NCBI GenBank assembly: GCA_039704465.1 | Contig: JASFAU010000002.1 | Coordinates: 310,001 to 374,000 of the forward strand | Direction: 5' to 3' | Length of the DNA: 64,000 nt | From: Plasmodiophora brassicae | Lineage: Eukaryota > Endomyxa > Phytomyxea > Plasmodiophorida > Plasmodiophoridae | Part shown: one piece after another, positions 456 through 25,073 of the stretch | Layout of the letters: the number at the start of each line of letters is the position of its first letter | How positions within the stretch are numbered: the first letter of the stretch is position 1 | Position numbers and translations under genes: made by a program | Notes under the pieces: generated by a model | The model's database searches: none | Seen by the model: the letters and a program-made list of their open reading frames with translations, nothing else | Told to the model about the DNA's origin: nothing

Positions 456-1385
456 TCAGCCGGCATCGAAAGGCAAGGGCACAACCGGACGTGTGTACCT
501 CTTGAGAGACGCGTTCTCGTCCAGCAACGCAAGGTTCTGAGCTCTCAGCTGGGATATTACGTCAGCCAAGGCTGGGTCGTCGGTGGCGGCGGCGGCCTTA
601 GCCGGCGGGGGAGCTGGCCGCTCGGTTTCGGTCGTGTCCTCGGACCGACTGCCTGCAGAGCGGGGCGCTTTCGGTATCGATTTCCGCATGGCACGCTTCT
701 TCTTTGGCGGCGGCGGTGATTCGGTGATGGTGACCGGGCGCCGCCGGTGCCCTCCGCCATCCCGTTCGCCCCATGACTTTCGCGCCAGGCGCCGCGGCCG
801 TACTGGAGTGCGGTCAGCAGGCCTGCTGTCGTCATCGTGTTCGCGCCCAGCCTTGCCCGACGACTTCCGGGCGATCCGCTTCGCCCGACTTGATGACCCG
901 GGCGTCGGGGCGGCACGGTTCGGCGTTGAATTGCGGCTGGTCGTCAGTACGTTGGGTTTGCGCGCCGGAGACGACCGCTTCGAGGAGGAGGACTTTGGCG
1001 TCCTCGCTGCATCGCTCGAGCGACGACGAAACTCGGCCAACTTCTTCGGGCAGTTCAGGTGTTCTATAGGCTCCCAGGTATTGTCTGACGCAGCGCTGCG
1101 AGACAGAACGGCAGTCAGTTCACCCGAGTTCGCAGGAGCTCCTGGCAGCCACGCTGTCTTACTATCCCTTCCATTTAATCTGTGCCAATGCGCATCCGTC
1201 AGTTGTGGGCGGGCCGAGAACCAGGCCGGCAGTTCACCGACCTCGTACTCGACGCGTTTCGTCTCCGGGTTCGATCGTCGCCCCACGATCCTCTCGACCT
1301 GGCGCCGACAAATTTGGTACCCTGACGCATCAACATATCCGCTGACGTGCCTGACCTCAAAGTCTTTGGACTCGACGTCGGACAT
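456..1385 (-). CDS. Chromodomain protein, four exons with a 17-nt microexon
   Basis: A naive open frame runs through this locus, but the chromodomain only becomes continuous if three introns are removed: 1299-1355 (57 nt), 1180-1241 (62 nt) and 1096-1162 (67 nt), all GT-AG. Exons are 1356-1385, 1242-1298, 1163-1179 (17 nt) and 456-1095, giving 247 residues. The spliced N-terminus reads KDFEVERIVGRR, then EYEIKWKGYAASDNTWEP, then HLNCPKKLAEF: the aromatic-cage and Trp-Glu-Pro pattern of an HP1/Polycomb-type methyl-lysine-binding chromodomain, residues about 7-60. The remainder is basic and Ser/Pro/Arg-rich with several KRIARK- and KKKR-like clusters (probable nuclear localisation and nucleic-acid contact), ending in a short heptad-like segment near residue 215. 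No chromoshadow domain is recognisable. A likely histone-mark reader; its target is unknown. The inverted end of a mobile element lies about 100 nt upstream of the start codon. Confidence 0.85.
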   Translation of the reverse strand: MSDVESKDFEVRHVSGYVDASGYQICRRQVERIVGRRSNPETKRVEYEVGELPAWFSARPQLTDAHWHRLNGRDSKTAWLPGAPANSGELTAVLSRSAASDNTWEPIEHLNCPKKLAEFRRRSSDAARTPKSSSSKRSSPARKPNVLTTSRNSTPNRAAPTPGSSSRAKRIARKSSGKAGREHDDDSRPADRTPVRPRRLARKSWGERDGGGHRRRPVTITESPPPPKKKRAMRKSIPKAPRSAGSRSEDTTETERPAPPPAKAAAATDDPALADVISQLRAQNLALLDENASLKRYTRPVVPLPFDAG

Positions 1386-1544
1386 GGCGCGATGGGCGCG
1401 CACCGCAAACGAGGCGAGCGGCGAAGACGGCAACCTTTTGCGCGCGCGCGGAGTCCTGGAGGGGGCTTCCTGTTGGTTACGTCTAGTGATGCGGGTATTT
1501 GAAATACGTATTTTAAATAGGTACAACCACCGGAAGGTATATTT

Positions 1545-1743
1545 GGATCACAGGGACACAATTTATGGATCACGGGGACACAAACATTGGATCACGGGGA
1601 CATAATTTTTGGATCATGGGGACACAATTTTTGCATCACGCGGACCAAATTGGCGGATCGGGCGGACAAGTTAAAATGGATCACCGGGACGGATTTCGTG
1701 GATCGTTGGGCCAAATCAAATGGATCAGGCGACCGCATGTGGC
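1545..1743 (+). repeat. Left-end 22-bp iterons, nine units
   Basis: Copies of a unit beginning GGATCACGGGGACACAATTT start at 1545, 1567, 1589, 1611, 1633, 1655, 1678, 1700 and 1722, a strict 22-bp period with one 23-bp step. The outer four units are almost identical; the inner five keep GGATC and GGGAC with substitutions. Confidence 0.9.
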
Positions 1744-1914
1744 GAGGCGAATGCATCAACGTTGAGCGTCGCAAGTCGTCAGAGTCGGCATGCAAATAGT
1801 GGTAAGCGTAATGTACTTGACGGGCAGCATCACATTGGCAATGTGATTCAGTGATTCACAGCAGAAGGAGACGAACCGTCTCATCTCATTCGGCGTCGGC
1901 GGGGGCGACCAGCG

Positions 1915-2184
1915 ATGTACCCTGAACGGATCCCGAGGTTGGATCCCACGATCGCCGCAGACGCGAGAATCGGTCAGGTCGAATTCACGTCGGCGGCTAC
2001 AGAAGCACGACGCGCTGCCGACAAACGGCGCTTAGACGACCAGTGCCGGGTCGTGCGTGAGAAGTCTCGGCAGCGTGCAACGCAGCAATTGCTCCCACTA
2101 CAATGCGCTGTTGATCACGTTCGCGCCGTTGCTGACAGAAAGATAAGTCGCTACCATGAGTTGGCGCCTGATCGTCAACAGTAG
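1915..2184 (+). CDS. Open frame inside the mobile element, 89 codons
   Basis: An ATG-initiated frame between the inverted ends encodes a charged, Arg/Asp/Gln-rich segment predicted mainly helical (stretch EARRAADKRRLDD). It stops at 2182-2184, and a GT lies just at the stop, so it may be the first exon of a spliced gene that continues into the 2363-2782 frame. No family recognised. It may be only a chance frame. Confidence 0.25.
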   Translation: MYPERIPRLDPTIAADARIGQVEFTSAATEARRAADKRRLDDQCRVVREKSRQRATQQLLPLQCAVDHVRAVADRKISRYHELAPDRQQ

Positions 2185-2362
2185 TTCGAGAACGAGGTCG
2201 CCCAGTGGAGTAACCGACTACTAGCCAGTGACCAGGGAAGTGGGGTGCTCTCAGTCCACCGTATCGCGGCACTTGAACGAGGTCTCGAATGCTCACGACG
2301 GTATTCCGTGAGGAGCGCGCCGTAAGCTATCCGATGTCCAGCTTGACGCAGCAGCCCGATTT

Positions 2363-2782
2363 ATGTTTGTCTGTCCTGGGTCGACTCTTGCACTTGCGAA
2401 GAAGTTCCTGAAGCTATCCTACGATGTCGACGTTTCTGAAAAAACATTGAGCGGGCACTTGGGCGACCGAGTTGGGTTCCGACTTGGCGATTTTAAGTCG
2501 TTCCACATCAGGCGTAATGCGCAAGAGACCATCGATAAGCGGCTGGATGTCGATGATCTCCTGAACAGTTATCTACCACATTTCTACGAGGAGTACACAC
2601 CGGACCACTGCCAGCACCTTCGCGACGTTTTCGGTTGCTCCCGTTTAACCAAGGATTTCATTGAGAACTGGTACGGCGCTCAAACGCAGACGAGTTCATC
2701 GGGACCCGGCGACGACAATGACAACGCTCCTCAAGGACCACCTGGAGAACCTGCCACTGACTACCACCCACCTCTCGCCTAG
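2363..2782 (+). CDS. Hypothetical protein encoded inside the mobile element
   Basis: This is the best open frame between the inverted ends, 139 codons from an ATG at 2363 (the frame is open back to a stop at 2309). The first 110 residues have globular composition (KKFLKLSYDVDVSEKTLSGH, then DFKSFHIRRNAQE, then HFYEEYTPDHCQHL). The last 30 are acidic and Pro/Gly-rich. I do not recognise a DDE transposase triad, zinc finger or recombinase motif. It could be the last exon of an element-encoded protein or a captured host fragment. Confidence 0.35.
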   Translation: MFVCPGSTLALAKKFLKLSYDVDVSEKTLSGHLGDRVGFRLGDFKSFHIRRNAQETIDKRLDVDDLLNSYLPHFYEEYTPDHCQHLRDVFGCSRLTKDFIENWYGAQTQTSSSGPGDDNDNAPQGPPGEPATDYHPPLA

Positions 2783-2802
2783 ACACCTATCCTGTTGAGG
2801 GA

Positions 2803-2956
2803 CACAATAAATGCATCATGATCCATTCACGTTGTCTGTCTGATCCATCATTTTGTTCCACGTGATGCAAAAATAATGTCCCCATGATCCAAAAATTGTG
2901 TCCCCGTGATCCAATGTTTGTGTCCCCGTGATCCATAAATTGTGTCCCTGTGATCC
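2803..2956 (-). repeat. Right-end 22-bp iterons, seven units, inverted
   Basis: On the minus strand the same GGATCA...GGGACA unit begins at 2956, 2934, 2912, 2890, 2868, 2846 and 2824, again at exactly 22 bp. The outer five match the left-end units position by position, including the GCATCACG variant at the fifth place. Confidence 0.9.
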
Positions 2957-2975
2957 AAAAATACCTTCCGGTGGT

Positions 2976-3657
2976 TGTATTTAAAATACATTTTAAAATA
3001 CCTCCCGAATTTTGGGTCATTTTTTATATTTTAAATTGCCCAGCATGCAGAGCAGGCCCTAGCTGCCAGGCGACCATCACAGGGCATCACGGGGTCGTAG
3101 ACTCGTGGTACGTGGGTCCATGGTCCGTTCCAAGTTCGCGAGGCATGCAGTTTGCGTGCTTACGCTTGTCAGTGCCGAGTGTCGACCGACGCCGGAGCCC
3201 GGAGACGACGTAGTCCCGACGCCGATGGGTCGTACTTAAGCGTGAGTGCCCCCGAGATAGCATTCATGAGCAGTTCAAACGGATTCCGAAACCTGCCGGT
3301 TGCGCTTTGGATCAAGCAGCGTGCAATCAGTGCTCCGACCGTGTTCCATACTCCAAGCAAACTATGGATCGTCATGCGAGTACAGGCCGGACTGACGAGC
3401 GCAACTTACCCATCGAGCATTCTTGGTCAGTACAGTACCTGGGCAACTTCGACTTCGAGGAAGTTGTCGAATTAGAGGAATGGTTATAACCGGCCGCAAC
3501 GAACGTGACTGGAATATACGTACTGCTATCGGCGTCGCTATGTGCCGCTGTGCTGTGGTAATGGTATTTCTGAATAAAAAATATTCGAGTATATTTTAAA
3601 ATGCATTTTAAAATATTTAAAATATTCGAAATTCCCAAAATATTTTAAAATACAACA
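2976..3657. repeat. AT-rich inverted pair abutting the element
   Basis: GTTGTATTTAAAATACATTT at about 2978 is matched, inverted, by ATTTTAAAATACAAC ending at 3657, with further AT-rich palindromic sequence around 3572-3650. The intervening roughly 550 bp is ordinary GC content with only short frames (largest 3152-3475, 107 codons, no recognisable content). It may be a second, degenerate element sharing the same outer tip, or a nested insertion. Confidence 0.4.
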
Positions 3658-3659
3658 CT

Positions 3660-4311
3660 AGTTACGTCGCTTACGTTACAGGCCAGCACTGTACTCGTCA
3701 GCCCACGTGCCGCTGCTCCTGCAACGATGGTTTCGTTTGCTAGCTTGCTGACAGGTTCGGGAACCGCACTGGCAGGCCAAGATACACGCGGGATCCCTGT
3801 ACCAATAACGACCAGGAAACCATGTTGGTCGATAAAGCACCTGACCAGGTATCGGAGTCATTGCCGAAGTTGTACAGAAACGAGGTATGCTCACCTATGG
3901 CGATGGGCTGGACGGTCACCTGTGGATCTCGGTGCTGAGAGGACAAACAGGAACGATTCGCGTGGCGAGCGTTCGACGTTGGGAGCAGCCATTGCCACTT
4001 CGAGCGGCCGTTGTCGTCGAGTGAAGGAAGTTGAGGACATAGCAGAGGTTGTCGACAGACTGGTCGTCGACGATGGGCTTGCACATTTCTCCAGCACTGT
4101 TCCTTGCGATACAGTTGACATTAATCGGGGCGCACTTGAATCGGAGCGCAGCAGACATTGCATGGGAAACGTCTGGAACCGAAGGTCACTGCCATGGTCT
4201 TCTCGCTGCTCGGCACGAACGTTGCCAACTAGCAATCTCGGACGCCGCGTGACGTCGTGGCCGTCCGTGAATATGCCCTCCAACTGCTTCGAAGGGGGCT
4301 ACGTCTATTGT
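3660..4311. other. Unresolved 650-bp stretch, possible minus-strand gene
   Basis: Frames overlap on both strands. On the minus strand an ATG at 4158 opens 80 codons containing CKPIVDDQSVDNLCYVLNFL, and another frame at 3740-4084 contains IGEHTSFLYNFGNDSDTWSG. Both have protein-like composition, but I could not join them with an in-frame GT-AG intron of the size used elsewhere. It may be a decayed or unusual spliced gene. Confidence 0.25.
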
Positions 4312-5043
4312 TTATAGGTTGTTAGCTCGCCGAAGGTTCTCAAGGTTTTGATTGGCCTGGCGACCTCTGGCACAGAGTTCCCGTGTCTCTTCGTTGATGG
4401 CGTCGAGCATGGCCTGCAGTCGTTTCATCGTAGACGTGCTAGATAGCATTGTATCGCCGCCCTGTTTTAAAATGGTATCGATTCGTTTCCTGGCGACGGC
4501 GATGTCTTCGCGCCTGAGTTCAATCCGCCGGGCCAGCCGGCGGCGACAGCGAACTGTTTCTTTGTGTTGCTCAAGAGCGTCGATCTCTTGCTTGCTGGGG
4601 ACCCCAAACGAGGCATTGTCGACCGGTGATGGCGCTTCGCTGCTAGCCAACGGTTCGTCAAGGTCAATCTCGAGCGCAGACTTCACTGCCTCACTGACGA
4701 TGCCGTTCTTGCTGGCCAGGTCCCCCAATGTTCGCTTCGCTATTCGTATTGACAGCTGGAGGTCCCTCGTGATCGCTTCGAGACGAGCCGAGTCCCGCTG
4801 TACGTCTTGCAGGTTGCGACGCGCCGTTCGCACATCGTTATGCAGATCTTCGACGTCGCGAACAATATGGTCCTGCGAGCCAGCTGTTGACGTTGCCGTT
4901 GGTACGATGGCTTGGGGAAGACCAAGAGACTGGAGCACATCGGTTGGCGGCAGCGTCCCGACTGGCGCGACGACATCGATATGGACCATAGGTGTTCTGG
5001 CAGGCGCATTGCTGACGTCGTCGGAAAGAGTCGTCGACGACAT
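4312..5043 (-). CDS. Hypothetical coiled-coil protein, single exon
   Basis: An uninterrupted ATG-to-stop frame of 243 residues. Residues about 60-125 and 150-243 carry heptad-like spacing of leucine, isoleucine and valine in a highly charged background (HNDVRTARRNLQDVQRDSAR; ELCARGRQANQNLENLRRAN), predicting two long coiled coils separated by an acidic/Ser-rich linker. The N-terminus is Thr/Pro/Val-rich and probably disordered. No membrane segment or signal peptide. I do not recognise the family; tethering, cytoskeletal or kinetochore-type scaffolds are compatible. Codon use is like that of neighbouring genes. It is transcribed in the same direction as the downstream-numbered citrate carrier, 268 nt away. 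Confidence 0.6.
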   Translation of the reverse strand: MSSTTLSDDVSNAPARTPMVHIDVVAPVGTLPPTDVLQSLGLPQAIVPTATSTAGSQDHIVRDVEDLHNDVRTARRNLQDVQRDSARLEAITRDLQLSIRIAKRTLGDLASKNGIVSEAVKSALEIDLDEPLASSEAPSPVDNASFGVPSKQEIDALEQHKETVRCRRRLARRIELRREDIAVARKRIDTILKQGGDTMLSSTSTMKRLQAMLDAINEETRELCARGRQANQNLENLRRANNL

Positions 5044-22400: not shown

Positions 22401-25073
22401 GACCGTGGGTCCCCATCTGGAGGTAACCAGCCACTACCCGGTTCCGGTTCGCAGCCACAAGCGCAGTCAAGCCAACCGTCTAACGGCGGGTCGCCATCTG
22501 GAGGCAGCTCGAGTTCGCAGCCACAATCCTCGCCGAGTCAACCGCCCAACGGTGGGTCACCATCGGGAGGCAGCTCGGGCTCGCAACCACACTCGTCGCC
22601 CAGTCAGCCTTCGAACGGCGGGTCGCCATCTGGAGGCAGCCCGAGTTCACAGCCACAATCCTCGCCGGGTCAACCACCTAACGGTGGGTCACCATCGGGA
22701 GGCAGCTCTGGCTCGCAACCACAATCGTCGCCCAGTCAGCCTTCGAACGGCGGGTCGCCTTCGGGAGGCAGCCCGAGTTCTCAACCACAATCGTCGTCGG
22801 GTCAACCGCCTAACGGTGGGTCGCCATCTGGAGGAAGCTCGAATACGCAGCCACAATCCTCGCCGGGTCAACCGCCTAACGGTGGGTCGCCTTCGGGAGG
22901 CAGCTCGGGCTCGCAACCACAATCGTCGTCGGGTCAACCGCCTAACGGTGGGTCACCATCTGGAGGAAGCTCGGGCTCGCAGCCACAATCTTCGCCCAGT
23001 CAGCCTTCAAGCAGCGGGTCGCCATCTGGAGGTAGCTCGAGTTCGCAGCCACAATCCTCGTCGGGTCAACCGCCTAACGGTGGGTCACCATCTGGAGGCA
23101 GCTCGGGCTCGCAACCACAGTCATCGTCGGGTCTGCCTTCGAACGGCGGGTCCCCATCTGGTGGTAGCCCAAGTTCGCAGCCACAATCGTCGTCGGGTCA
23201 ACCATCTAACGGTGGGTCGCCATCTGGAGGCAGCTCGGGCTCGCAACCAGAATCCTCGTCGGGTCAACCATCGAGTGGTGGGTCACCTTCCGGAGGCAGC
23301 CAACCATCAAGCAGCTCGAGTTCGCAGCCGCAATCGTCGTCGAGCCAACCACCGAACCAATCGAATGGTGGATCACCATCTGGGAGCAGCCAGCCTCCAA
23401 GCAGCTCGAGCTCGCAGCCACAGCCCTCCTCGAATAAGCCATCTGACAGTGGGTCGCCGTCTGGAAGCAGCCAACCACCAAGCAGCTCCAGTTCGCAACC
23501 ACAGTCATCGGGTTCGCAGCCACAGTCGTCGTCGAGCCAACCACCGAAGCAATCGAATGGCGGATCGTCATCTGGGAGCAGCCAGCCACCAAGCAGCTCA
23601 AGCTCGCAACCACAGTCCTCGTCCAACCAACCGCCACAGTCGTCCGACGGCGGGTCATCGTCGGGGAGCAGCAAGCCACCAAGCAGCTCAAGCTCACAAC
23701 CGCAGTCCTCGTCGGGCCAACCATCTGATGGTGGATCACCGTCTTCCAGCAGCCAGCCACCGAGTAGCTCGAGCTCAAAGCCACAATCCTCGTCGAGTCA
23801 GCCCCCGAAACAATCTGACGGTGGATCGTCAAGCAGCCAGCCGCCAAGCAGCTCGAGCTCGAAGCCGCAGTCTTCGTCGAGTCAGCCATCTGATGGTGGA
23901 TCTTCCAGCAGTCAGCCACCAAGCAGCTCGAGCTCGAAGCCGCAGTCCTCGTCGAGTCAGCCATCTGATGGTGGATCTTCCAGCAGCCAGCCACCAAGCA
24001 GCTCGAGCTCGAAGCCACAATCGTCGTCGAGTCAGCCATCTGATGGAGGATCGTCAAGCAGCCAGCCACCAAGCAGCTCGAGCTCGAAGCCGCAGTCCTC
24101 GTCGAGTCAGCCATCTGATGGAGGATCGTCAAGCAGCCAGCCACCAAGCAGCTCGAGCTCGAAGCCGCAGTCCTCGTCGAGTCAGCCATCTGATGGTGGA
24201 TCTTCCAGCAGCCAGCCACCAAGCAGCTCGAGCTCGAAGCCGCAGTCCTCGTCGAGTCAGCCATCTGATGGAGGATCGTCAAGCAGCCAGCCACCAAGCA
24301 GCTCGAGCTCGAAGCCGCAGTCCTCGTCGAGTCAGCCATCTGATGGTGGATCTTCCAGCAGCCAGCCACCAAGCAGCTCGAGCTCGAAGCCGCAGTCCTC
24401 GTCGAGTCAGCCATCTGATGGTGGATCGTCAAGCAGTCAGCCACCAAGCAGCTCGAGTTCGAAGCCACAATCGTCGTCGAGTCAGCCACCGAAACAGTCT
24501 GACGGCGGGTCGTCGTCTTCGAGCAGCAAGCCGCCAAGCAGCTCGAGCCCTCCTCCTCCTCCTCCTCCTCAATCGTCCTCGAGTGAGCCACCGAAACTGC
24601 AACTGCCACCGATGCCGACATTTGGACCGACGCCTGCCCCGACACCTTCTTCTGAGCCGTGTGTGCCGCACCTTCACCCGCACCACTACGTGTATGGACG
24701 TCACCACGATCATCGCGAGATCTCGAAGTCGTCCCTGGACAACGTACCGGCGTCCAGCGTCCCAACCGGGGCGCGCCTCATGCTCCACCTTTTCCTGCCC
24801 GTCTTCGCATCGCAACCCGTCTTCGTCAACGTCGTCGCCAATACGCGTCAGATTGGCCGTGCGTTCATCATGGGCGGACCGAACGACGAGGTCGCAATCG
24901 CCACCGGCCCTGGCCTGCATCGCCTGCTCGACGTCACTCGCGCCTACCACGCGTTCCTCGGCAAGCCGGACGCGCAACCCGTCCAGCTGTCCTTCACGAC
25001 GACGAAATCACCGGCTGACGACGCGCCACGGGCGACACTCCTCTCCGCCTACTTCGAATGGATCTGTTCATAA
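19485..25073 (+). CDS. Secreted tyrosinase-like protein with giant Ser/Pro/Gln/Gly repeat region, 1862 residues
   Basis: A single exon. Residues 1-21 are a signal peptide (LLFCGALALLVATCADAGA). Residues about 24-240 follow the outline of a tyrosinase/hemocyanin core: RNEINSVSAQQLNAYRDAL, ALLYIEERIGQPVPYWDF, IPSAFLDATY, and VLGGCLISLETAPSHPLW followed by a Trp-containing helix. These correspond to the start, PYWD strand and CuB region. The copper-binding histidines of both sites appear missing (no WHR; no HxxxH or HH at CuB), so enzyme activity is unlikely. Residues about 320-1710 are low-complexity Ser/Pro/Gln/Gly with internal tandem repeats. A globular C-terminal domain of about 140 residues follows (His-rich HPHHYVYGRHHDHRE, then LMLHLFLPVFASQPVFVNVV). 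A wall, matrix or surface-coat role is possible. The tyrosinase link is inference from pattern. Confidence 0.75.
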   Translation: MALLFCGALALLVATCADAGAQHRNEINSVSAQQLNAYRDALRRSQAVDHHWQSFSILHSSCQPSSSSLVDTMMSALLYIEERIGQPVPYWDFNSSATIPSAFLDATYVPNDGYAPVPNPLLADSVNPLCRMDGDIDDLTKRDIRERLQALPMLSAADRFSVLFDAMSVVQGVLGGCLISLETAPSHPLWISMLSYVITTYQSWSAPATKPTPCPSHLMVPASTAVMLSRCWIQDEDVGMKPGPVVDLSALQNMTSATPDSKDTVQLFIKSASGIVVPGPLVTRRMLQDLHDNQDEFGIVPFEEQKAPGLDFTHARSSPAPAVVPAVPGGSGMPGATGRSYNDVGAAAPTAGASHGTPSNGRGSPGAGSSNPVGASSPQGQPGSLPSNGNLAGSPASSSGPGSAPGQGAPAGSSPSGAQSQPNGSKMPSGPGRSGPSPSTSSSAGTFPSSGTSPDATPDTGNQSPNADQRQPSMPSGTPFQTSRSKSPTVSPSLPSSGTPADASSGPSSSGGSAGLPSESSHVPGAGQTSRTPSTNQRSPGSQGVSGTPSSSLPSTVPGDVPGSTGALFKSGAQVPGRSGPSPNQNLPTGPSSQKPLGESPGQGGGQSGASPANGGSHQQPSRQQSQGGMAGQGSGQQGSSPSNGGNPDSPNQQQPFNQHPHGGESGGQPGTSPSNGGRPDLQQPSSGQQPGGGPGQNGSPTPQRSPSLQPNSGQPNSHGQPPSGGSPSQGSQKSGGAGAPEGPESPMTSPQSPSGERPPSGGSSNPSGSQPSSGSGQPGMSGTPPTSPQSSSGQQPQNGGSSAPSGSAQSSGQPGGSGSPSTPPQSSSGQASPNGGSSGPSSAGQPGGSGPPSTAQSSAGQPSPNGGSSRASSQPSSGAGQPQGSGSPSTPQSPSGQQSPNGGSSSPSGQPSGSSGQPGGSGVPPSSQPSPGQQPQMPQSNGGSPSSPSGNGQPSSGSTSSPQSGQPPAQSDRGSPSGGNQPLPGSGSQPQAQSSQPSNGGSPSGGSSSSQPQSSPSQPPNGGSPSGGSSGSQPHSSPSQPSNGGSPSGGSPSSQPQSSPGQPPNGGSPSGGSSGSQPQSSPSQPSNGGSPSGGSPSSQPQSSSGQPPNGGSPSGGSSNTQPQSSPGQPPNGGSPSGGSSGSQPQSSSGQPPNGGSPSGGSSGSQPQSSPSQPSSSGSPSGGSSSSQPQSSSGQPPNGGSPSGGSSGSQPQSSSGLPSNGGSPSGGSPSSQPQSSSGQPSNGGSPSGGSSGSQPESSSGQPSSGGSPSGGSQPSSSSSSQPQSSSSQPPNQSNGGSPSGSSQPPSSSSSQPQPSSNKPSDSGSPSGSSQPPSSSSSQPQSSGSQPQSSSSQPPKQSNGGSSSGSSQPPSSSSSQPQSSSNQPPQSSDGGSSSGSSKPPSSSSSQPQSSSGQPSDGGSPSSSSQPPSSSSSKPQSSSSQPPKQSDGGSSSSQPPSSSSSKPQSSSSQPSDGGSSSSQPPSSSSSKPQSSSSQPSDGGSSSSQPPSSSSSKPQSSSSQPSDGGSSSSQPPSSSSSKPQSSSSQPSDGGSSSSQPPSSSSSKPQSSSSQPSDGGSSSSQPPSSSSSKPQSSSSQPSDGGSSSSQPPSSSSSKPQSSSSQPSDGGSSSSQPPSSSSSKPQSSSSQPSDGGSSSSQPPSSSSSKPQSSSSQPPKQSDGGSSSSSSKPPSSSSPPPPPPPQSSSSEPPKLQLPPMPTFGPTPAPTPSSEPCVPHLHPHHYVYGRHHDHREISKSSLDNVPASSVPTGARLMLHLFLPVFASQPVFVNVVANTRQIGRAFIMGGPNDEVAIATGPGLHRLLDVTRAYHAFLGKPDAQPVQLSFTTTKSPADDAPRATLLSAYFEWICS
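22482..23273 (+). repeat. 66-bp tandem coding repeat, about 12 units
   Basis: Each unit encodes a 22-residue variant of NGGSPSGGSSGSQPQSSPSQ plus two residues. Third-position substitutions between units are frequent, so this array is older than the one downstream. Confidence 0.9.
23814..24488 (+). repeat. 75-bp tandem coding repeat, nine units
   Basis: Nine 25-residue units (SDGGSSSSQPPSSSSSKPQS and five more) are nearly identical at DNA level. Two synonymous versions of the SSSS block occur (TCGTCAAGC and TCTTCCAGC), in order B A A B B A B A B. This shows recent expansion with unequal exchange. Confidence 0.9.

Follow-up and report, generated by a model that had tools for sequence, protein, structure and literature searches.

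The window, a stretch of 64,000 nucleotides of Plasmodiophora brassicae DNA (contig JASFAU010000002.1, positions 310,001 to 374,000), carries near its beginning a chromodomain gene and, upstream of it, a Tc1/mariner-like element that lies inside another, apparently hAT-type element. Copies elsewhere are named by contig (C numbers) of the genome that we searched, which contains the window and comprises 25,344,181 bases in 21 contigs. The two elements are delimited as follows:

1524..2977, + strand (orientation of the transposase remnants): non-autonomous Tc1/mariner-like element, subfamily A, 1,454 bp, ends CAACCACC...GGTGGTTG, TA on both sides
1522..1523, unstranded: left TA target-site duplication; empty site AAATAGGTATTTAAAAT in the hAT-type copies C1:1104k and C13:124k
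2978..2979, unstranded: right TA target-site duplication
1484..3660, unstranded: surrounding host element, 721 bp, non-autonomous, hAT-type, split by the insertion, TAGTGATG...CAACACTA
1476..1483, unstranded: left 8-bp target-site duplication GTTACGTC
3661..3668, unstranded: right 8-bp target-site duplication GTTACGTC

The inner element ends in inverted arms (1522-1669 and 2832-2979, 148 nt, 92% complementary). The initial annotation had proposed a transposon-like element with iteron arms. This is supported: the element is flanked by a TA duplication, empty sites and additional copies exist, and a sister copy on C4 has a transposase frame without interruption. The span given there, 1492..3012, was too wide: the true bounds are 1524-2977, and the AT-rich flanks (1492-1521 and 2980-3012) are part of another element. 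Among seven copies of this surrounding repeat, two (C1:1104k and C13:124k) read AAATAGGTATTTAAAATAC, with a single TA and no element; a third (C1:1632k) has TAGGTATTTAAAATAC in common, and the remaining four differ near the site. The search for further copies recovered them with their ends and TA duplications, as well as the transposase-bearing 2,290-bp relative on C4, and thus the element is not single-copy.

The length of its duplication indicates that the surrounding element is of the hAT type and non-autonomous, and it is older than the insertion that it contains. Perfect 8-bp duplications of their own flank four of seven other copies examined (CATATAGC, CCCCCCTT, GTCAGGAT and GGCGGCGA), while the right-end motif was not found in the other three copies. 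The chromodomain gene, on the minus strand, has its ATG at 1383-1385. The distance of about 100 nt assigned to the iteron element holds for the hAT-type element, which lies 98 nt from this codon, but the Tc1/mariner-like element lies 138 nt from it. For structured RNA, the window gave no Rfam match at gathering thresholds. As a separate observation, two tandem copies of TTTTAGGG, the telomere motif of P. brassicae according to a passage of PMC6823432, occur five times on three contigs, on C13 at most 110 bases from the contig end; four tandem copies had no match in the genome.

Iteron arrays of the window copy

Both ends carry rows of direct repeats (iterons), oriented inward from the tips:

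1545..1743, + strand: 5' array of nine iterons, starting at 1545, 1567, 1589, 1611, 1633, 1655, 1678, 1700 and 1722
2803..2956, - strand: 3' array of seven iterons, at 2935-2956, 2913-2934, 2891-2912, 2869-2890, 2847-2868, 2825-2846 and 2803-2824
1524..1544, + strand: 5' tip, a half iteron by eye, with the inner GGA in register (subfamilies A and B) and the terminus in place of the outer half
2957..2977, - strand: 3' tip, a half iteron by eye
1720..1722, + strand: ATG overlapping the innermost 5' iteron, predicted transposase start in subfamily A (only with the predicted intron spliced) and subfamily C

The nine left and seven right GGATCA/GGGACA units described earlier were recovered by our unit listing, and TRF detected 22-bp arrays on both sides. 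Their period is almost exactly as claimed, all steps being 22 bp except a single 23-bp step (1655 to 1678). Conservation is indeed best on the outside, since the outer four units of each arm match the core GGATCA-nn-GGGACA at 12 of 12 positions and the inner units at 7-11 of 12. The innermost (seventh) 3' unit is a half iteron that forms a head-to-head near-palindrome, GGATCATGATGC.

We compared the best lag from 5 to 66 with 500 dinucleotide shuffles per arm. Results showed a lag-22 self-identity of 0.60 in the left arm and 0.62 in the right arm of the window copy, values that no shuffle reached. A two-unit pattern with at most three mismatches gave 19 matches genome-wide, all on C2, C4 and C11, against none for the reversed-pattern control. 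A protein might bind the array cooperatively along one face of the DNA, as the initial annotation suggested, although 22 bp correspond to about 2.1 helical turns and each site would be rotated by roughly 34 degrees relative to the one before.

Transposase remnants and an uninterrupted sister copy

A 2,290-bp copy at C4:414401-416690 is 98% identical to the window element, with 20 substitutions over 1,451 aligned bases plus two 3-base gaps. Relative to it, the window copy is without 125 and 711 bp, and comparison of the two defines the following features:

1802..1861, + strand: predicted small intron GTAAGC...CACAG (63 nt in the C4 copy; prediction only)
1915..2232, + strand: transposase remnant, residues 1-105, 95% identical, one stop inside
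2231..2232, unstranded, approximate: site of the 125-bp internal deletion
2219..2548, + strand: transposase remnant, residues 143-252 (helix-turn-helix region), 91% identical, two stops inside
2541..2542, unstranded, approximate: site of the 711-bp internal deletion, all three catalytic residues gone
2543..2779, + strand: transposase remnant, residues 488-566 (C-terminal tail), 99% identical

The C4 frame has 586 codons from stop to stop and encodes 566 aa counted from the first in-frame ATG. A predicted intron of 63 nt (GTAAGC, TACTGATACACAG) would link an upstream exon in frame, giving a predicted product of 611 aa that starts at the ATG overlapping the innermost 5' iteron; an alternative 66-nt intron would give 610 aa. 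The 63-nt length fits the average of 60 bp reported for introns of P. brassicae in a passage of PMC4471660.

The C4 protein matches the Pfam domain DDE_3 (PF13358) at 8.6e-15, above the cut-off, and the NCBIfam IS630 transposase at 5.7e-26, with 91.7 bits lying under the cut-off of 100. Residues D278, D363 and E402 are conserved in 7/7 aligned proteins, and by our own count 38 residues separate the last two, corresponding to DD38E. Of the two helix-turn-helix motifs joined by a GRPR-like linker that are expected in the IS630-Tc1-mariner group, Pfam places the first at about 131-170; a linker (RGRP/RGAR) and a second helix-rich block are visible in the seven-protein alignment, in a region where the structure model is of low confidence. 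A search of solved structures by sequence returned weak helix-turn-helix matches only (E 0.2 or worse).

The view that no recognisable transposase lies inside the element is therefore overturned, as it holds fragments of a DDE_3 transposase whose identity to the uninterrupted C4 frame is 91-99%. Because the catalytic part is gone, the window copy cannot make a working transposase, and the loss of 125 and 711 bp, catalytic core included, makes it a non-autonomous deletion derivative that can only move if a relative supplies the enzyme. As judged from these DDE_3 remnants, the element belongs to the IS630-Tc1-mariner group and not to a wholly unknown class. Of the features of this group, the TA duplication, a transposase of the DDE_3/IS630 kind with an NPxE motif and terminal inverted repeats are present.

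Three subfamilies in one genome

Searching the genome with the transposase protein gave 41 matches, several of which come from one broken copy and some of which belong to another DDE_3 lineage. Nine copies could be delimited at both ends: two of subfamily A (window and C4), two of B (C3:581k and C8:814k) and five of C (C17:625k, C3:554k, C8:503k, C2:58k and C17:82k). We left out C6:1238104 (5' tip missing), C6:1205410 (other array 7 kb off), C17:589642/595311 (pieces about 5 kb apart), C16:512237, C16:690084, C3:604512, C14:1043714, C6:600578, C15:674510, the solo ends C11:854445 and C4:413464, and the arrays known from the pattern scan only (C11:869643-870195, C3:606k and C19:396k). With one sequence taken for each, the transposases of B and C are 70% and 61% identical to that of A.

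Each of the nine copies is flanked by TA on either side and carries a 22-bp iteron array at either end. The unit itself differs, for example GGATCACGGGGACACAATTTTT in A, GCATGACGGGGACGAAATTTTT in B and GGATCACTCGGAAGAAATTTTT in C, and the step is 22 bp in the three subfamilies, apart from one step of 23 bp in some 5' arrays. The 5' arrays have nine units (A) or seven (B and C; interrupted in C17:82k) and the 3' arrays seven (A) or five (B and C). In 9/9 copies the innermost 3' unit consists of GGATC and, after it, half a unit in inverted orientation (GGATCATGATCC, GGATCGTGATGC, GGATCATTATGC and similar). By eye, the GGA of the tip is in register with the units in A and B and off by one base in C. 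Inverted repeats align over 78-190 bp with arms 88-96% identical (ten copies with a match).

A pattern built on the unit columns, with one mismatch allowed, matched 93 times genome-wide against once for its reversed control. Grouped by hand, these matches form 17 loci, 13 with two arrays and four with one (the diverged array C11:854k, a match of the two-unit pattern, is outside this set). The arrays face inward in all 13 two-array loci and lie 0.6-2.3 kb apart in 11 of them; the other two, with about 7.4-7.5 kb between arrays, are probably split by inserts. Among the single arrays, two (C3:606k and C16:690k) have transposase fragments nearby, one (C4:413k) matches the tip of subfamily B, and the fourth is C19:396k. 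As the pattern was derived from these elements, the count of 93 shows where arrays are and not that they are surprising; that their regularity is unexpected follows from the shuffles and the reversed-pattern control.

These data bear on the proposal that the arms belong to a satellite or a foldback element with no link to a transposase. Internally repetitive arms do look like those of foldback elements, but the arrays found are short, most loci are paired ends, and the TA duplications, the empty sites and transposase-bearing copies with the same arms led us to reject this proposal. Since the C4 copy in itself refutes it, we find it scarcely credible.

Outside the family, we examined stretches of a second DDE_3 lineage (C4:802600 and C8:800700) as a control for arrays. 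Inverted arms were not found within them, nor was a 22-bp period seen where their shared part ends, but on one side this part runs up to the limit of the stretch examined and may continue beyond it. At C4:1316000, no inverted arms were found in the stretch examined.

We also noticed that two subfamily C derivatives of 1,208 bp (C8:503k and C2:58k) are equal in length and 98.8% identical, each with TA and with different flanks. The presence of the same derivative at two loci means that an array-bearing copy devoid of the catalytic core moved or got copied, the source of the transposase likely being another copy.

Conservation of the iteron unit

We asked which features of the unit are kept, using 34 units from three copies with the innermost unit of each arm left out. 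Columns G1, A3 and T4 are invariant; A6, G10, G11, A12, A16, A17 and T22 carry 1.3-1.8 bits; two of the other 12 columns reach 1.0 bits and ten stay below 1. Lag-22 self-identity was 0.58-0.64 in the six arms of the window copy, C3:581k and C17:625k, and in none of these arms was any of 500 shuffles as high. The units past base 110 of the 5' arm lie mostly outside the part common to both arms, yet they keep the period, with a lag-22 identity of 0.43-0.52 compared to 0.23-0.31 at lags 21 and 23.

Position-matched units were then compared between subfamilies, summing both arms and taking columns 1-6 and 9-13 as motif and 7, 8 and 15-22 as spacer, a division of our own choice. Agreement in motif and spacer columns was 84/110 and 46/100 for A and C, 76/110 and 58/100 for A and B, and 76/110 and 55/100 for B and C. 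Thus the motif agrees better than the spacer in all three comparisons, clearly so for A and C only.

Part of the regularity could come from homogenisation between arms and not from selection, because the outermost arm pairs are nearly identical. Taken further, this leads to the idea that the arrays are passive tandem duplications kept regular by gene conversion, with no function except in the one or two outermost units. The two arms of a copy are almost identical over their outer 117 bp (four differences in C4) and the likeness of neighbouring units falls inwards, as such a by-product would predict. On the contrary, the idea does not account well for a 22-bp period kept in three subfamilies and in inner units no longer common to both arms, for particular columns invariant over 34 units, or for deletion derivatives (C2:311k, C8:503k and C2:58k) that retain both arrays. 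We consider it unlikely.

Relatives and known systems

Searching a protein collection (7,997 candidates scored from 5.8 billion proteins) gave six matches at E 0.001 or better: two full-length ones from a source labelled 'lgn', one from Phytophthora fragariae, likewise full-length, two shorter ones from Pythium insidiosum and a weak one. A profile search at E 1e-5 returned the same first five proteins and added nothing, and a subfamily C protein used as query had one partial match (P0008). The oomycete relatives (P. fragariae PF008_g27944, P0004; P. insidiosum P0005 and P0006) are 34-37% identical, their BLASTP alignments spanning 47-93% of the query. P0004 has the same domain order, with an N-terminal GRP motif, helix, helix-turn-helix, DDE_3 and C-terminal tail, whereas P0005 and P0006 miss all or most of the N-terminal part; all three come from oomycete hosts and are compared here as proteins. 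In a viral collection, 126 stretches match a pattern, one of which (L086) encodes a distant relative with 24% identity; no inverted repeat in the 4 kb examined exceeds 31 nt (at 74%).

Elements such as CACTA and Ac/Ds carry many subterminal protein-binding motifs, irregularly spaced, and their transposases are of other superfamilies. As generally described, they share with our family the many subterminal repeats and differ from it in spacing, which is regular here, and in transposase superfamily. One transposase site at each end is common in Tc1/mariner elements. Two or three occur in some, according to a passage of PMC3828361. Bari has three repeats of 18 nt in its terminal 250 nt, and the Bari1 transposase binds its repeats (PMC3828361 and PMC4877112). 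With such Tc1-like IR/DR elements (Bari, Sleeping Beauty, Minos, Paris and S), the family shares the TA duplication and several direct-repeat transposase sites per inverted repeat, as far as passages of PMC3828361 and PMC4877112 describe them. The IR/DR type is characterised by spaced direct repeats, two or three at each end, which is not what is found here: the three repeats of Bari contrast with ends of five to nine units that follow each other without a gap at a 22-bp period, and the transposase, of about 560-610 aa, is also unlike theirs (Minos, Paris, S and Sleeping Beauty compared by description).

Intruder elements share the DD38E spacing, and some of their members have inverted repeats of 100-272 bp (PMC7731502, main text). 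They are given there as restricted to animals, with a transposase of 341-379 aa in an element of 1.5-1.7 kb, unlike the 566 aa (about 610 with the predicted first exon), the protist host and the oomycete relatives of our family; the term 'direct repeats' is absent from that main text. Foldback-like Galileo and Tetris also have repeats within inverted arms, as their titles and the starts of abstracts indicate, but Galileo is assigned there to the P-element group, in contrast to the TA duplication and DDE_3 transposase found here.

In the literature covered, including passages of PMC7731502, PMC4877112, PMC3828361, PMC4495683, PMC7325037, PMC4054914, PMC6823432 and PMC4471660, Tc1-like elements are described with up to three direct repeats per end, and some with long inverted repeats. 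At least five phased units were found for no element of the IS630-Tc1-mariner superfamily in this literature, which was mainly open access, with Repbase outside its scope. The suggestion of an undescribed eukaryotic family thus stands in that no described family in this literature has such arrays, and falls in that the superfamily is known; what appears new is the unusual end structure conserved across three subfamilies.

Proposed role of the arrays

At the level of sequence, the TA duplication, the inverted repeats, the DDE_3-bearing sister, the internal deletions and the two-ended 22-bp arrays are established. The explanation that we favour, and hold to be probable, is that the window copy is a non-autonomous deletion derivative of a low-copy element of the IS630-Tc1-mariner type, whose arrays would load the transposase and whose 5' row would repress its gene. 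The helix-turn-helix domain would bind each iteron through the half-sites TGSAT and GGA, which are separated by about one turn of the helix; two half-sites per unit would suit a two-part DNA-binding domain, the next unit following two turns further. A long N-terminal helix may let neighbouring transposase molecules touch. By such binding and contacts, the array would load transposase beside the tip and pair the ends, the part that is cleaved being the tip's half iteron plus the terminal bases.

This helix is predicted in an oomycete homologue at residues 27-109, where a block with pLDDT 66-88 covers 31-110. The model of this homologue, from P. fragariae, built on five sequences, is poor overall and of too low quality for a fold search (mean pLDDT 47.5; residues 261-561, including the catalytic region, below 50), so that the fold is not confirmed by structure.

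The loaded 5' array might also repress the transposase gene in subfamilies A and C. As the array reaches the predicted transposase ATG in both, its loading should lower expression, a form of autoregulation. In subfamily B, the frame from the array-overlapping ATG gave no product longer than 150 residues in the two copies read; because this ATG opens no usable frame, autoregulation would not be general.

The reach of the arrays to the predicted start in A and C would suit transcription control by a host protein as well, for example a helix-turn-helix or chromatin factor that binds the arrays and acts on chromatin or transcription, while the transposase recognises the tips only. We regard this as decidedly improbable. 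The unit sequence varies within one genome and tracks the transposase subfamily, which makes a single host factor an odd fit; the arrays are paired ends at 13 of 17 loci, three of the four single ones lie near transposase fragments or match a B tip, and the tip itself retains part of the unit in register.

Returning to loading by the transposase, it is possible, albeit somewhat doubtful, that in a branch of the IS630-Tc1-mariner group in Rhizaria and oomycetes the single site at each end became a phased row, onto which the transposase loads as a cooperative chain by means of its N-terminal helix and which also serves as an operator over the transposase start codon, with unit and DNA-binding domain diverging together. 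If so, one DNA structure would set both end pairing and transposase dosage, and co-divergence would insulate the subfamilies of one genome from one another.

The word 'mariner' is absent from the main texts of two P. brassicae papers (PMC6823432 and PMC4471660), and our results add to this genome a transposon family with oomycete relatives. With five to nine phased sites in three subfamilies of a single genome, the family could serve to study the number of docking sites required by a transposase, the effect of additional sites on mobility, be it inhibitory or stimulating, and the joint evolution of a transposase with its sites.

Array pairs and related transposases elsewhere

Other loci of the genome that holds the window carry the arrays in different arrangements. 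On contig C11 (869643-870195), two B-type arrays of 22-bp units face inward with about 0.6 kb between them; this locus is likely to be a miniature derivative. At C6:1205109-1212576 and C17:589281-596680, the paired arrays are about 7.4-7.5 kb apart with transposase frames between them, a wide spacing that looks as if a 5-kb insert had split or enlarged the element. We also observed an inverted duplication made of transposase fragments (137 nt, 88%) at C16:512104-512581.

A second lineage with the DDE_3 transposase domain was found in near-identical copies at C4:802600-805900 and C8:800700-804000, which share 99.9% identity over 2.8 kb and are apparently recent; no inverted arms were found within the fetched stretches. 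Loci at C12:823k and C16:742k give a DDE_3 score equal to that of this lineage. A distant IS630-like transposase (24% identity) is present at 4001-4786 of a 39-kb viral contig; the 4 kb inspected there contain no arms that match.

Sequence context of the iteron element

Elsewhere in the window, extended tandem arrays occupy 22447-24488, with periods of 66, 132, 75 and 225 bp, to which TRF adds 81 and 21. All are multiples of three, and the arrays perhaps represent a repetitive protein.

The iteron element is nested within a 721-bp non-autonomous hAT-type element, next to a chromodomain gene:

Window 456-1385, minus strand: chromodomain gene (PF00385 match, 7.5e-7)
Window 1476-3668: hAT-type element, flanking 8-bp duplications included, with the iteron element inside it

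The hAT-type host has an 8-bp duplication and at least seven further copies in the genome, part of them incomplete. It lies 98 nt from the start of the chromodomain gene. The nested insertion may sit in the promoter of this gene.
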